DNA of 64,000 bases, taken from Pusillimonas noertemannii. GTDB taxonomy: Bacteria; Pseudomonadota; Gammaproteobacteria; Burkholderiales; Burkholderiaceae_B. Below are positions 58,632 to 64,000 of the stretch, one piece after another (position 1 is the stretch's first letter; each line of letters starts with the position of its first letter). Both the position numbers and the translations under genes were made by a program. The stretch is taken from contig NZ_QEKO01000001.1 of assembly GCF_003096595.1 (NCBI RefSeq), forward strand, positions 868,001 to 932,000, given 5' to 3'. The notes under the pieces were generated by a model that was not told where the DNA came from, searched no databases, and was given only the letters and a program-made list of their open reading frames with translations.

Positions 58632-60386
58632 TCATATCCACGCGTCGCGCAGCGTGGTGCTGCGGTTGAGCACCGGGCGCTCGGCCGTGGAATCGAAACG
58701 GTCGGCCACGAAATAGCCCAGCCTTTCGAACTGCCAGAAGTGTTCGGGGTGCGCCTGGGTGCCGGGCTCGAGCCAGGCCTGGACGGTCTGGAAAGAGTGG
58801 GGGTTGAGGGCGTCGAGGTAGTTCTTGTCGCCGCTGTCGGGGTGCGGGTCGGCGAACAGGCGGTCGTACAGCCTGACCTCGGCGGCGACGGCGTGTGCCG
58901 CGCTGACCCAGGTGATGTTGCCCTTGACCTTGACCGAGTCGGCGCCCGGCGTGCCGCTTTTGGTTTCGGGCAGGTATTCGGCGTGCACTTCCACCACGCG
59001 CCCGGAGTCGTCCTTGACGCAGCCGGTGCAGCGCACGATGTAGCCGTACTTGAGCCGCACTGTATTGCCTGGAAAAAGCCTGAAGTATTTCTTGGGCGGT
59101 TCTTCGCGGAAATCGTCGCGCTCGATCCAGAGCTCGCGCGAGAAGGGGAATTCGCGCATGCCGAGTTCGGGTTCGTGCGGGTTGCGCGGCGCGTGGCACA
59201 GCTCGCTTTGGCCCTCGGGGTAGTTGGTGATGACCAGCTTGAGCGGGTCGAGCACGGCCACGCGTCGTTCGGCACGCGGGTCGAGGTCGTCGCGCAGGGC
59301 CTGCTCGAGCAGGCTGTAGCCGATGCGCGAATCGGCCTTGGAAACGCCCAGGCGCTCACAGAACAGGCGGATGGATTCGGGCGTATAGCCGCGCCGGCGC
59401 AGGCCGGCCAATGTGGGCATGCGGGGGTCGTCCCAGCCGGCCACATGGCCGCCGCGCACCAGTTCGAGCAGCTTGCGCTTGCTGGTGACGACGTAGCTGA
59501 GGTTCAGGCGGGCGAATTCGATCTGCTGCGGCAGCGGACGCCGCAGGCGGCCCAGGCCGGCCAGTTTTTCAAGTATCCACTCGTAGAAGGGGCGCTGGTC
59601 TTCGAATTCGAGGGTGCAGAAGCTGTGCGTGATGCCCTCGAGCGCGTCTTCGACGGGGTGGGCCCAGGTGTACATGGGGTAGATGCACCATTCGCTGCCC
59701 GTGCGATGGTGCGGCACATGGCGTATGCGATACAGCACGGGATCGCGCATGTTCATATTGGGCGAGGCCATGTCGATTTTGGCGCGCAGCGCCATGCTGC
59801 CGTCGGGGTGCTTGCCGGCGCGCATGGCTTCGAGCAGGGCCAGCGATTCGGCCGCCGGGCGGTTGCGCCAGGGCGAATCGCTGCCTTTTTCGGTAAGCGT
59901 ACCCCGGGTTTCACGCATCTGCTCTGGCGATTGCTCGTCGACATAGGCGTCGCCCGATTCGATCAGGGCGCGCGCAAATTCGTACATGAAGCCGAAATAG
60001 TCGCTGGCGTAATACAGGTTTTCTTCGCCTTGGTGCTTCCAGTCGAAGCCCAGCCACTTGACCGCCTCGATGATGGCCTTGACGTATTCGTCTTCTTCCT
60101 TTTCGGGGTTGGTGTCGTCGAACCGCAGGTGACAGGCGCCCTGGTAGTCGCGGGCCAGGCCGAAGTTCAGGCAGATGCTTTTGGCGTGGCCTATGTGCAG
60201 GTAGCCGTTGGGTTCGGGCGGGAACCGCGTGCGGATGCGCGCCCTGTCGACCTCGCCGCCCTGTTGCACGTCGGCGGGCCCGGGGCGCCCGGCCCAGAGC
60301 TTGTTGTCGTAGCGGCCCTCGGCAAGGTCGCGCTCGATGATCGTGCGAAGAAAATTGGAGGTGGATGGGGTGGAAGCAGCGGTCAT
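58632..60386 (-). CDS. glnS: Glutaminyl-tRNA synthetase
   Basis: The 584-residue class I synthetase has the HIGH-type motif PNGYLHIGHAKSI, the KMSKS-type VTSKRKLLELV, and catalytic-domain segments RFDDTNPEKEEDEYVK and SPWRNRPAAESLALLEA. It charges tRNA-Gln directly, so the organism need not rely only on the GatCAB route for glutaminyl-tRNA. It is upstream of, and divergent from, the cydA-like gene. Confidence 0.97.
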   Translation of the reverse strand: MTAASTPSTSNFLRTIIERDLAEGRYDNKLWAGRPGPADVQQGGEVDRARIRTRFPPEPNGYLHIGHAKSICLNFGLARDYQGACHLRFDDTNPEKEEDEYVKAIIEAVKWLGFDWKHQGEENLYYASDYFGFMYEFARALIESGDAYVDEQSPEQMRETRGTLTEKGSDSPWRNRPAAESLALLEAMRAGKHPDGSMALRAKIDMASPNMNMRDPVLYRIRHVPHHRTGSEWCIYPMYTWAHPVEDALEGITHSFCTLEFEDQRPFYEWILEKLAGLGRLRRPLPQQIEFARLNLSYVVTSKRKLLELVRGGHVAGWDDPRMPTLAGLRRRGYTPESIRLFCERLGVSKADSRIGYSLLEQALRDDLDPRAERRVAVLDPLKLVITNYPEGQSELCHAPRNPHEPELGMREFPFSRELWIERDDFREEPPKKYFRLFPGNTVRLKYGYIVRCTGCVKDDSGRVVEVHAEYLPETKSGTPGADSVKVKGNITWVSAAHAVAAEVRLYDRLFADPHPDSGDKNYLDALNPHSFQTVQAWLEPGTQAHPEHFWQFERLGYFVADRFDSTAERPVLNRSTTLRDAWI

Positions 60387-60497
60387 TGCGGAAAGCGGAA
60401 TGGAAAAACATGCGAAGTAAGCATTTTGCCACGTTCACATATATTTGCCCGCGCGTGCGCCCAAAATCCGTGTTCAGGCTCTAAACTAGCGGGCATT

Positions 60498-61835
60498 ATG
60501 AATACGACCGTCTGGCTTTCTCAGATCCAGTCTCTCGTCAGCCTGGGGTTCATGTCGCTGTTTCTGCTCATCGAGCTGGGCCTGGCCTGGGTGCTGCTGT
60601 TCTTCAGGCTGGCCGACCGGTACTCGCCCGGCAATGCCTGGATGCTTGCCTATCGGTTCTGGGTGCGCGTCTATGCGCTGGCGGCGATTCTGGCCCTGGC
60701 GGCCGGCATCCCGGTGCTCATCGAGCTGGGCAGCCTCTGGCCAGGCCTGCTCGATCGCATCGGCGACGTGGCCGGCCCCTTGCTGGCGGCCGCCATCCTG
60801 ACCACCTTCATCGTCAAGTCGTGCTTCATGAGCGCCATGCTGTTCGGCCAGCGCAGCCTGTCCGACACCGCATACACGGCCGTGGTGTTCATGGTGGCGG
60901 CCGGCACCACGCTTTCCGTCCTGTGGGTCCTGGCGCTGGTGGGCTGGATGCAGACTCCGGCGGGCACGGGCTTCTTGAACGGAGAGTATTTCGTCACCGA
61001 CTGGTATCAGGTGGTCTTCAATCCCTCTGTGGGCTGGCTGTTCCTGCTGCTGGCGGCGGCGTCGGGCATGGCCGTGGCCTTCATGCTGTTGGGCGTGATC
61101 GCGGGCCGGGCGTCGTCGCTGCCGGCCGACGACAGCGGCCGCCAGGTCTTCCGTGCCGGCGCAGTCATCGGGCTGGCGGCCGTGCTCTTGTATGGCGTGG
61201 CCATCACGGGCTACGGCCGCATGGTTGCCACCTACCAGCCGGCCAAGGCGGCGGCCACGGCGGCCTACTGGCAAAGCGGGCAGCAGCCCGATCTGGTGCT
61301 GTTCGGGTGGCCTGACGAGCAGCGCGAGTCCACGCGTGCCGTGCTGGCCTGGCCTCATGCCGGTGGAAAATGGCTGGGTTTCGACGAAGACGGGAGCCTG
61401 ATCGGGCTCGACCATTTTTCGGGCATGCAGCCGCCCGTGGCGCTTACCTTCTGGTCATTCCGGGTGGCGCTGGCGGTGGCGCTGGCCATGCTCGTCGCCG
61501 CCTGCGGAGCATTGTGGTGCATGCGGCGCAAATATATTGAACACGGCGACCTGCCGGCCGGCTGGAGGCGCTTCTTCTCCTGCATGACCTTTCTCGGCTG
61601 GCTGGCCGGGCCCGCCCTGCTGTGCCACGTGCTGGCGGGGCAGGCACCCTTCATCATCAGCCAGACCGTCACTTTCATGGAAGTCGCCGGCTCCACCCGG
61701 CCCTCCCACCTGGTCATGGGCATTGCAGCCCACCTGGCTGTGTACAGTGCGTTGCTTCTGGGCTTCATCCATTTGCTGCGGCACGGCGTGCAGTACGGCG
61801 TGGTGCCGGTGGCCCGCAGAAGGGGTAGGGCGTGA
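60498..61835 (+). CDS. CydA-like subunit I, lacking canonical heme-ligand residues
   Basis: The 445-residue membrane protein aligns well with cytochrome bd subunit I: LSQIQSLVSLGFMSLFLLIELG at the N-terminus, GTTLSVLWVLALVGWMQTP, then QPAKAAATAAYWQS and LFGWPDEQ. However, residues that ligate hemes in E. coli CydA are replaced: His19 by Met19, His186 by Leu185, Met393 by Ala324. Glu99 and Glu107 are Ala99 and Lys107, and the GRQPW motif is degraded to GQAPF. The long Q loop is also reduced. It overlaps the cydB-like gene by 4 bp (GTGA). It cannot be a normal heme-bd oxidase; it may be a specialised CydAB paralogue. Confidence 0.85.
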   Translation: MNTTVWLSQIQSLVSLGFMSLFLLIELGLAWVLLFFRLADRYSPGNAWMLAYRFWVRVYALAAILALAAGIPVLIELGSLWPGLLDRIGDVAGPLLAAAILTTFIVKSCFMSAMLFGQRSLSDTAYTAVVFMVAAGTTLSVLWVLALVGWMQTPAGTGFLNGEYFVTDWYQVVFNPSVGWLFLLLAAASGMAVAFMLLGVIAGRASSLPADDSGRQVFRAGAVIGLAAVLLYGVAITGYGRMVATYQPAKAAATAAYWQSGQQPDLVLFGWPDEQRESTRAVLAWPHAGGKWLGFDEDGSLIGLDHFSGMQPPVALTFWSFRVALAVALAMLVAACGALWCMRRKYIEHGDLPAGWRRFFSCMTFLGWLAGPALLCHVLAGQAPFIISQTVTFMEVAGSTRPSHLVMGIAAHLAVYSALLLGFIHLLRHGVQYGVVPVARRRGRA

Positions 61836-62893
61836 TAGTCGATACGCTGGTCGAACTGCTGGGGTTCAGCGCTGAAGATCCGGCGTTCTGGATGCCCCTG
61901 GTTTTCATGGGCCTGCTGTTCGCCATCGTGGTGGCGGCCACGCTTCTCGACGGCTTCGACATCGGCGTGGGCTGCCTCGCCCTGGTGGCGCCCCGCGAGC
62001 TTCGTCCACGCATGCTGTCCCTGTTGAGTCCATGGCGCGACGCCAACGAGTTCTGGCTGTTCCTGGGGCTGGGCGTATTCGTCGCGGCCTTTCCCAATGC
62101 ATGGGGCAGCATCATGGGCCAGCTTTACCTGCCGCTTTGCCTGCTGGCGCTGGGCGTGCTGCTTCGGTCGGTTTCATTCGAATTCCGTCTGCGCGCGCCG
62201 CTCAATCTGCAGCAGCGCTGGATACTGGGCTTCGGCCTGGGCTCGCTGGCCACCGCCGCGGCCCATGGCTTGTTGCTTGCGCGGCTGGTCGTCGGCTATC
62301 GAAGCGGCGGCGGCTACCTGGCCTTCGGCCTGTTCGTGGCGCTGTGCTGCGTGGCGGCCTACTGCCTGCTGGGCGCCGCGTGGCTGATCATGCGCGAGCA
62401 GGGGCCGCTGAGGTTGCGCGCGGTATTCTGGGGCCGCCGTGCGGTCAGGTGGGCGGCAGCGGGTGCGGTCGCCGTGTCGGTGGTGCTGGCCTTCGCCAAC
62501 ACAGGCGTGTTCCTCAAATGGAGCGACGGGCCGCAATGGTCGCTGGTGGCCTGCCTGTGGATCGTGCTGCTGGTCTGCTTCGTGGTCATCGAGATCACCC
62601 TGCAGCGCATGGTCACCCACAGCGACGGCACGACCATGCTGCCGTTCCTGGCCACGCTGCTGGCCTTCCTGGTGATTCTCGGTGGCCTGTTCTACAGCTT
62701 CTTCCCCTATCTGGTGCTCGACAATATCACCATCTGGGACGCCTCGGCCTCGGTAAGCTCGCTGGGGCTGGTGCTGGCCGCCTCCATCGTGGCCCTGCCC
62801 GTGGCGCTCATCTTCAACATCTGGGTGTACTGGCGCATGTTCGGCCTGTCGCGCGCCCCGGTGCCGCCGGGCTTGAACAGAACCGGCCGCTGA
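61832..62893 (+). CDS. CydB-like subunit II
   Basis: The 353-residue membrane protein has the CydB-type segments LLDGFDIGVGCLALVAP, SPWRDANEFWLFLGLGVFVA (a variant of the WDGNEVWL region with Ala for Gly) and IWDASASVSSLGLVLAAS. About nine hydrophobic spans are visible. The start is GTG, overlapping the cydA-like gene. Its presence next to a heme-ligand-less subunit I suggests the heterodimer is retained for a function other than heme-based oxygen reduction. It converges with a sensor kinase gene only 8 bp away. Confidence 0.88.
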   Translation: MIVDTLVELLGFSAEDPAFWMPLVFMGLLFAIVVAATLLDGFDIGVGCLALVAPRELRPRMLSLLSPWRDANEFWLFLGLGVFVAAFPNAWGSIMGQLYLPLCLLALGVLLRSVSFEFRLRAPLNLQQRWILGFGLGSLATAAAHGLLLARLVVGYRSGGGYLAFGLFVALCCVAAYCLLGAAWLIMREQGPLRLRAVFWGRRAVRWAAAGAVAVSVVLAFANTGVFLKWSDGPQWSLVACLWIVLLVCFVVIEITLQRMVTHSDGTTMLPFLATLLAFLVILGGLFYSFFPYLVLDNITIWDASASVSSLGLVLAASIVALPVALIFNIWVYWRMFGLSRAPVPPGLNRTGR

Positions 62894-62901
62894 CATTGCC
62901 C

Positions 62902-64000
62902 TTACGTGTCGTGCAGCCCTGTGGCTGGCTCACCGGCTGGCGACGACAAAGGCAGCCGCACCGTTACCTTCAGGCCGCCCGACTTGGCCTCGTCCAGCGA
63001 CAGGCTGCCGCCGTGGGCCCGTGCGATTGAGTTGCACAGCGCCAGGCCCAGGCCCACCGACCCGGTCAGGGTGCGGGCGTCGTCCAGGCGCGAAAAGGGA
63101 CGCAGCGCCTCGACGCGCCGCTCTTTTGAAATGCCCGGGCCATGATCGGAAATCGTCATGACGGCATGCGTCGCGGTGGCCGACAGGCCGATGTCGATGG
63201 GCGGAGACGCATAGTTCAGCGCGTTGGTGATCAGGTTGTCCAGCAGCCTGCCCAGGGCGAACCCGTCGGCGCGGAGCATGACGCCGCGCGGCAGAGGCTC
63301 GAGCAGCTTCACGTCGCTGCCTGCGCTTTTCCAGGTGCCGACGTGCTCTTGCAGCCAGTCGCCCAGGTCAAGCCGGGTGAAGCGGTAATTGGCGGGATCG
63401 GTGCCGCGCACGAAGCCGATGAACTGGTCGACCATGCGCTGCATGTCCTGCAGGTCGTGGCGCAGGCCCTCTTTGAGCGCCGCCTCGTCCATCATTTCGA
63501 TGCGCAGCCACATGCGCGAGAGCGGGCCCTTGAGATCGTGGGGCAGGCCCGCCAGCAGGGTGCGGCGCACCGCATCCGATTCGTTCAGGGCGTCGAGCAT
63601 TGCATTAAAGCGTTCGCCCAGGGCGCGCGTTTCGCTCGGGCCCGCCGGCACCACCCTTTGGGGCTGGCCCGCGGCAAGCTGGTCGGCCGCCTTGGCCAGG
63701 CGGGTAAGGGGGCGGGTAATGTGCCAGGAGAAGGCGGCCGAGATCAGCAGGATGATGCCCATGCCGGCCAGCCATATCGCGACCAGGGGCGTCGCCACCG
63801 GCGGCGCCAGCCTGTCCAGCGGGATGACCAGCCATTCACGGGTGGCCATGGCGGTGGCGTCGCCTTCGTCGGGTTGAAGCGAGATGTAGATGCGTGGCGT
63901 GGGGCCGCGCGACAGGGCGACGTGCGTGCCGTCGTCCAGGCGCACGTTGAGCGCGTCGACGAGCTTGCGCAGGTCGTGCCTGAGGTCGTCATGCCTGGGA
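62902..64000 (-). CDS. Sensor histidine kinase (EnvZ-like), 5' end beyond window
   Basis: The frame stays open to the window edge, so the N-terminus is missing; at least 366 residues are visible. They include part of a periplasmic region, one transmembrane segment (VAIWLAGMGIILLISAAFSW), a HAMP-like ITRPLTRLAKAADQLAAGQP, the phosphoacceptor box LPHDLKGPLSRMWLR, the N box LITNALNYA and the G boxes DHGPGIS and GLGLALC. It resembles EnvZ/RisS-type kinases; the response regulator gene would lie beyond the window. Confidence 0.9.
   Translation of the reverse strand, partial: PRHDDLRHDLRKLVDALNVRLDDGTHVALSRGPTPRIYISLQPDEGDATAMATREWLVIPLDRLAPPVATPLVAIWLAGMGIILLISAAFSWHITRPLTRLAKAADQLAAGQPQRVVPAGPSETRALGERFNAMLDALNESDAVRRTLLAGLPHDLKGPLSRMWLRIEMMDEAALKEGLRHDLQDMQRMVDQFIGFVRGTDPANYRFTRLDLGDWLQEHVGTWKSAGSDVKLLEPLPRGVMLRADGFALGRLLDNLITNALNYASPPIDIGLSATATHAVMTISDHGPGISKERRVEALRPFSRLDDARTLTGSVGLGLALCNSIARAHGGSLSLDEAKSGGLKVTVRLPLSSPAGEPATGLHDT

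Follow-up and report, generated by a model that had tools for sequence, protein, structure and literature searches.

The locus studied here is a pair of overlapping genes near the end of the window, by which we mean the whole 64,000-nucleotide stretch of Pusillimonas noertemannii DNA that was analysed. The pair and its surroundings are made up of the following features.

58632 to 60386, minus strand: glnS, the divergent flank, outside the system (neighbour comparison)
60482 to 60487, plus strand: -10-like hexamer TAAACT, with 10 nt between it and the ATG of the next gene
60498 to 61835, plus strand: CydA-like subunit I without heme ligands (ORF of 445 aa)
61832 to 62893, plus strand: CydB-like subunit II (ORF of 353 aa, GTG start)
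62902 to 63945, minus strand: EnvZ-like sensor kinase, the convergent flank, outside the system, 8 bases from the stop of subunit II, its frame open beyond 63945

The subunit I and subunit II genes overlap by 4 bases, an arrangement found in nearly all pairs of the clade described below. Subunit I matches PF01654 (Cyt_bd_oxida_I) over residues 7-434 with 268 bits (Pfam cut-off 26.2), and subunit II matches PF02322 (Cyt_bd_oxida_II) over residues 21-336 with 190 bits (cut-off 35.6). Both proteins are therefore full-length members of their families, in agreement with an initial annotation that described a CydAB-like pair of retained overall architecture; the conserved motifs of subunit II are present, as it also stated. 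The NCBIfam cydA-type model gives subunit I only 81 bits, under its cut-off of 968 bits, and the cydB equivalog model gives subunit II 74.9 bits, under its cut-off of 117.3 bits. A second CydA is encoded on contig 4 of the same genome (locus L001). It is canonical, scores 564 bits and keeps all ligands.

Structure prediction from the clade alignments agrees with these assignments. For the AlphaFold model of subunit I (pLDDT 87.3) the best match is 7ose_A, the bd-II subunit I of E. coli, with a Z score of 46.6 and 2.2 A over 429 residues. That of subunit II (pLDDT 84.9) is closest to 9fka_B from M. tuberculosis (Z 33.2, 2.6 A over 311 residues) and scores Z 32.6 against 6rx4_B, subunit II of E. 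coli bd-I. In the predicted models the bd fold is intact in both subunits. According to sequence and predicted fold, the pair is a member of the bd superfamily by descent that lacks the residues by which an oxidase would be recognised.

Residues were numbered on E. coli CydA from NC_000913.3 in a gapped alignment. At the positions of E. coli H19, E99, E107, H186, M393 and E445 the window protein has M19, A99, K107, L184, A324 and L379, and all six heme-contact residues are absent. Met19 for His19, Ala99/Lys107 for Glu99/Glu107 and Ala324 for Met393 had already been noticed in the initial annotation and are confirmed by the alignment. The replacement of His186 by leucine was also correctly seen, and only its position changes, from L185 to L184. 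The earlier list of lost residues was right but incomplete, as it overlooked E445 to L379, R448 to Q382 and the change of the quinol-site residue E257 to A255. R391 (R322 in the window protein) and K252 (K250) are unchanged.

We take the heme d histidine to be E. coli H19 and the heme b595 glutamate to be E445. The heme b558 ligands H186 and M393 have become L184 and A324, the high-spin heme site H19/E99/E445 has become M19, A99 and L379, and the proton donor E107 is a lysine. From the quinol-site couple K252 and E257, the lysine is kept and the glutamate is lost. The available text of a review gives a histidine and a methionine as the ligands of heme b558, a conserved histidine as the ligand of heme d and a strictly conserved glutamate as that of heme b595, in all structures except that of Geobacillus (PMC8951039). 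By that text, the earlier statement that His19 binds heme b595 is dated.

Further copies with the same substitutions, which had been suggested as a check, were looked for and found: the ligand-less pair forms a whole clade spread across one family (Alcaligenaceae by name), to which it is restricted within the searches made. Many relatives were present among 61 near genomes. Clade genera among the best 80 of 248 matches in GTDB species genomes include Pusillimonas, Candidimonas, Pollutimonas, Achromobacter, Bordetella and Alcaligenes, all of which belong to Alcaligenaceae in the NCBI taxonomy. A clade profile matched 163 of 268 family genomes, in 30 of 43 genera, at E 1e-135 or better, a cut-off that is leaky both ways, admitting canonical CIO copies (second matches in G431 and G433) and missing a true member (G028). 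The genus g27 lies near this cut-off; six of its genomes were read, and K107 is present in all.

Beyond the family, an order-level search of 399 genomes gave more than 550 bits only in family f1, in 8 of its 13 genomes drawn. The next group reached at most 431 bits, and the 22 loci read from it were all canonical. At the class level (369 genomes), E 1e-125 was reached by the genome of origin only, and the top match in a plasmid search had 36% identity. In a phylum sample of 299 genomes, PF01654 was present in at least 160, and at least seven of them (G1035, G1047, G1190, G1251, G1212, G1125 and G1253) had a best match weaker than E 1e-140. Ligand-less members outside the family are possible, for example among these weak matches.

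The clade alignment holds 104 distinct subunit I rows (an alternative count of 108 includes duplicates), once L029 (a fragment), L079 (a truncated start), rows shorter than 420 aa and exact duplicates had been dropped. It holds 103 subunit II rows, L214 being additionally dropped for its broken frame. None of the six ligands remains in 91 of the 104 rows; M393 alone is left in 7, H19 alone in 3, H19 with E445 in 2, and H19 with M393 and E445 in 1. E99, E107 and H186 are lost in every row, and likewise in four further loci that came after these counts. E257 is lost in 104/104 as well. H19 is kept in 6/104, E445 in 3/104 and M393 in 8/104, while R391 is kept throughout (104/104) and K252 is present as K or R in 98/104. 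Canonical control rows have six of six ligands in 31/31 cases, and CIO-type CydA loci from other Burkholderiales keep every ligand in 22/22.

In a tree of 73 rows, midpoint-rooted for drawing only, a long branch (0.69) with 100/100 support separates the clade from the rest. Ligand loss occurs in none of the 40 non-clade rows. The rows that keep H19, namely L220-L224 from genus g27 and L232 from genome G010, some of them also with E445, D445 or M393, branch near the base of the clade, a base that is itself poorly fixed. Some early-branching members keep R448 too, and M393 alone persists in scattered later branches. Since early branches retain some ligands, the loss was probably stepwise, and E99, E107, H186 and E257 had probably gone before H19 and E445. 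Judging from the residues retained (H19 with or without E445, D445 or M393), heme could survive in the early-branching members.

Conserved alternative His or Met ligands at the heme sites had been raised as a finding that would count against a heme-free complex. They were sought in the alignments by listing the His, Met, Cys, Tyr and Lys residues that are conserved across the clade. No conserved His or Met occupies the six old ligand positions in the 104 rows, where K107 is the only clade-conserved residue of the five kinds. Outside these positions, two such residues are common in the clade: C109 (95/104 rows, rare or absent in canonical rows) and H429 (94/104, and 10/31 canonical rows), which are possible candidate ligands away from the six sites. 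Y164, also away from the six sites, is clade-enriched (103/104), and position 126 is His in 102/104 rows and Tyr in the window protein. Y52, M114 and Y416 were discarded as clade-special ligands because they are conserved in canonical rows as well.

The clade has also gained residues of its own. K107 (K in 102/104, R in 2/104), P72, V130, Y164 and F423 are clade-specific and near-invariant in subunit I, as are R69 (E. coli W57) and R206, each in 103/103 rows, together with W207, W243, F328 and N329, in subunit II. The window subunit II keeps D40, D43, D70, N72, R112 and E117 (E. coli D105). In the available text of PMC13189123, the E. coli proton path comprises K53, K57, E107 and E74 of CydA and D58 and D105 of CydB. 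Its entry is kept or conservatively changed in the clade, with R53 and R57 of subunit I in 104/104 rows and D70 and E117 of subunit II in 103/103. E74 is S or A in 30/31 canonical rows and K53 is likewise variable there, so that the weight of this comparison rests on K57, D58, D105 and E107 only. Most clade rows have lost S140 and D239, both of which are invariant among the canonical rows.

The pair is under purifying selection. Among the ten pairs compared, Ka/Ks ranged from 0.040 to 0.178 in subunit I and from 0.009 to 0.122 in subunit II; both subunits of the canonical pair gave 0.053 in a comparison of two genomes. The balance of conservation between the subunits is reversed. In the ligand-less pair, identity is higher for subunit II than for subunit I in 28/28 genome pairs (means 64.8 and 54.4%), whereas in the family's own canonical pair, from the same genomes, subunit II is the more alike in 14/28, and in 12 canonical CIO-type pairs in 1/66 comparisons. 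This is how a subunit I freed from heme binding would be expected to look, with function leaning on subunit II.

The position of the pair in the genome is conserved. Neighbours were compared in 81 loci (80 named loci and the window). The nearest shared upstream gene is glnS, on the opposite strand, in 79/81, the other two being contig ends, and minC and minD lie beyond it. The first shared gene on the downstream side is the convergent kinase in 46/81, recQ on the minus strand in 25/81 and another gene in 9, and in 1 locus the contig ends there. No glnS was present in the stretch read around canonical pairs, either from other Burkholderiales (0/12) or from this family (0/8). No operon partner was found among the shared neighbours of the 81 loci, which together with the conserved place beside glnS describes an isolated two-gene unit held in position. 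Pfam searches of 13 representatives of neighbour clusters gave a kinase, a regulator, RecQ, an ABC-F-like ATPase, an isochorismatase, RuvB, a ClC channel, EamA and TctC, with four unmatched; none of the nine matched representatives contains an iron-sulfur or other redox domain. The gene neighbours give no hint of a substrate.

In 70/80 clade upstream regions a hexamer of the form TANACT or TANATT is separated from the ATG by exactly 10 nt, and a Shine-Dalgarno-like 4-mer at -18 to -4 occurs in 0/80. The hexamer spacing, counted without a shuffled control, and the missing Shine-Dalgarno sequence suggest a leaderless transcript. FNR-, Fur-, ArcA- and NsrR-like sites were found in 1, 2, 1 and 0 of 79 upstream regions; a single shuffle for each motif gave 2, 1, 2 and 0, so these scans offer no regulatory clue. 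The 10-mer ATTTTGCCAC occurs in 66/79 upstream regions. It lies closer to glnS, whose promoter it probably is, and it was set aside as a regulatory clue for the pair.

One probable member of the clade has been studied under another description. The Bordetella copy is very probably cydAB3 (BB4012-4011; bp3224-3225), which we infer from matching features and not from a named record. In locus L214 a clade subunit I of 446 aa stands beside glnS and subunit II is split into two frames; this locus is presumably the copy of B. pertussis 18323. The deletion expected from 446 aa and a 4-base overlap is 2372 bp, and the published one is 2373 bp.

According to the available text of PMC11257404, B. bronchiseptica cydAB3 is a predicted high-affinity bd oxidase, and in air a strain lacking cyd3 matches the wild type in growth. 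Attempts to make strains that depend on a single oxidase failed for cyd3, whose transcript is low, and equally for cco, cio, ctaD2 and cyo2. A strain deprived of five oxidase loci, cyd3 being one of them, showed poor growth in 5% CO2, to which no cause was assigned. The same text reports cydB3 as broken in strain 18323 and six others of 14 B. pertussis strains, the locus being intact in 50%. The sole-oxidase failure agrees with a pseudo-oxidase, but it is confounded by the low transcript and by the four other failing loci. Elsewhere, bp3224-3225 is called a second bd oxidase, unexpressed in the laboratory (PMC12914433, in the part available), and BP3224 is listed with a C/G homopolymer tract (PMC1891110, likewise in part). 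The accessible portions of these three papers do not mention the missing ligands of the Bordetella pair, and those of PMC13367067, PMC13038864 and PMC7163038 added no ligand information. In its available text, a survey of bd oxidases in proteobacteria from 2015 describes the heme ligands as invariant (PMC5322542). No published report of a ligand-less clade was found in the accessible text of the open papers; the 2021 superfamily paper lay outside this search.

We propose that the pair is a heme-less pseudo-oxidase on the bd fold, an explanation to which, taken as a whole, we give a little better than even credence. The case that it is not an oxidase is strong. A specialised, heme-free complex, as first suggested for the window pair, is very probable: all six ligands are missing from 91/104 rows, and those positions hold no conserved His or Met. 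The accompanying suggestion of a regulator or transporter of quinol, sulfide or oxygen signals stays speculative. As the ligands for three hemes and the quinol-site glutamate are absent, neither electron entry nor oxygen reduction would be expected. The pair resembles oxidases with a short Q-loop (CIO-type) and has kept the two-subunit bd fold. Electron entry would have been lost with H186, E257 and mostly M393; the two glutamates of the oxygen-reduction site, E99 and E107, are gone, and so are, in most members, the high-spin heme ligands H19 and E445. In the main group heme would stay unbound, and, as in CydB, side chains, lipid or quinone may take up the space of the old hemes.

The charged residues at the cytoplasmic entry of the former proton path (R53 and R57 of subunit I, D70 and E117 of subunit II) are kept. 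Instead of feeding heme d, this entry may now end at the buried new Lys107, with the new Arg at position 69 of subunit II, whose nearness to K107 is putative. The complex might then let protons or a small anion through, as a gate or as a proton-coupled carrier; this is a guess from the pattern of residues, and a tentative one. The fuller version, a heme-free and redox-free transporter or ion gate with the proton wire rebuilt around K107 of subunit I and R69 of subunit II and the weight on subunit II, is also rather unlikely taken by itself. We nevertheless rank the gate or carrier above the alternatives, which are a sensor that binds quinone, a reduced cytochrome, a partner of canonical bd and a relic.

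The old heme sites might hold quinone or lipid, which would make the pair a heme-free quinone-binding complex acting, with a putative partner, as a sensor or membrane anchor like NrfD/ActC/PsrC. The available text of PMC8951039 offers a precedent, as E. coli CydB has ubiquinone-8 at heme positions and the mycobacterial protein has aromatic side chains. Retention of R391 (104/104) and of K or R at K252 (98/104) fits such a complex, as do the next best folds after the bd chains: subunits of alternative complex III, at up to Z 20.7 with subunit I and 15.5 with subunit II, and, for subunit II, a polysulfide reductase with menaquinone (Z 15.2). Such Z scores for helical bundles may, though, reflect a common arrangement alone. 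The complete loss of the quinol-site E257 (104/104) and the absence of redox domains from the 13 neighbour-cluster representatives (four without a Pfam match) speak against it, and we regard it as doubtful. A reduced cytochrome, retaining one heme through K107, M19, C109, H429 or other residues and working as a slow oxidase or electron carrier, is improbable. Lysine is able to ligate heme in other proteins and K107 is near-invariant, and early branches keep H19, some with E445 or D445, and R448. However, 98/104 rows have L, M, V, F or I at position 19 and 97/104 a non-acidic residue at position 379, and H186 and E257 are lost in 104/104 and M393 in 96/104.

Another CydA gene, or at least a piece of one, is carried by 34 of the 36 clade genomes searched, as would suit an inactive partner or decoy of canonical cytochrome bd serving as assembly factor or negative regulator. 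Yet the pair supplies its own subunit II, and it is present in two genomes, G008 and G903 (both 99% complete), that have no other CydA match at E 1e-10; thus it does not always depend on one, and we consider this role very unlikely. Least credible is a decaying relic gene. The subunit II of L214 in two frames would suit it, as would the finding that only 50% of 14 B. pertussis strains have the locus intact (PMC11257404, available text), but low Ka/Ks in ten pairs, full-length ORFs, the 4-base overlap shared by nearly all pairs, the constant spacing of the -10-like element and invariant novel residues argue against decay.

Genes counted as terminal oxidases in the family of Bordetella and Achromobacter are very likely not oxidases, and oxidase inventories and predictions of high-affinity bd enzymes in this family need correction. 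The clade presents a respiratory enzyme without its cofactor sites, whose fold and one subunit are still strongly selected, together with apparent surviving intermediates. What the cytochrome bd scaffold can do free of heme, and what subunit II contributes to it, become directly testable.

The pair can be compared with several known systems. NrfD/ActC/PsrC membrane proteins bind quinone without heme and share a likeness of fold (Z 15-21), but the iron-sulfur partner gene was not found among the shared neighbours of the 81 loci. Archaeal CydAA' (Murali 2021) likewise belongs to the bd superfamily and contains a CydA paralogue that has moved away from the canonical form; it is reportedly made of two paired CydA paralogues and is said to reduce oxygen, whereas the partner in the window is CydB-like (PF02322). 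With E. coli bd-I and bd-II (CydAB, AppCB) the pair shares the fold (Z 32.6 to 6rx4_B and 46.6 to 7ose_A), but it has neither the ligands nor the long Q-loop, and the 8 bases to the next stop after the window subunit II leave no room for cydX. Bordetella cydAB3, which the literature counts among high-affinity bd oxidases, is very probably a member of the clade itself. Of the canonical sequences, the CIO-type CioAB/CydAB of Burkholderiales score best against the clade profile, at up to 457 bits, and share with the clade its length (445 aa for the window subunit I), the short Q-loop, the gene order, the Pfam families, R391 and K252. In contrast to them, the clade has lost all heme ligands (in its main group) and E257, has gained K107 in subunit I and R69 and R206 in subunit II, and has a subunit II that is more alike among its members than subunit I.

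The position adjoining Lys107 in subunit I, residue 109, is Cys in 95 of the 104 distinct clade sequences, whereas none of the 31 canonical sequences carries it. Early-branching members of the clade, L232 (G010:C1:3524815-3526152) and the loci L220-L224 of genus g27, combine Lys107 with a retained His19, and some of them also keep Glu445 or Asp445, Arg448 or Met393. These loci are possibly living intermediates of a ligand loss that proceeded in steps.

Upstream of the subunit I gene we found the following motif:

60482-60497, + strand: -10-like hexamer and spacer to the ATG

The end of this hexamer lies exactly 10 nt from the ATG in 70 of 80 upstream regions of clade loci, and no Shine-Dalgarno-like 4-mer was found in those 80 regions. 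The fixed distance, together with the lack of such a 4-mer, suggests that the transcript of the subunit I/II pair is leaderless.

In L214 (G875) a break near codon 91 divides the frame of subunit II in two. Subunit I of L030/L233 (G028:C10) has 426 aa, with about 20 residues missing from a loop region and Ala at the Lys252 position. BP3224 of B. pertussis has been listed among genes with a homopolymer tract (PMC1891110).

Two genomes, G431 (locus L170) and G433 (L171), encode both the ligand-less pair and a canonical CIO-type CydA (~457 bits); longer canonical CydA forms are present too. According to a published study, a B. bronchiseptica strain jointly lacking five oxidase loci, one of them cyd3 (Bordetella cydAB3, very probably a clade member), grew poorly in 5% CO2 (PMC11257404).

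Behind bd chains, the predicted models of both subunits find their best fold matches in subunits of alternative complex III; the subunit II model also matches polysulfide reductase with menaquinone at this level.
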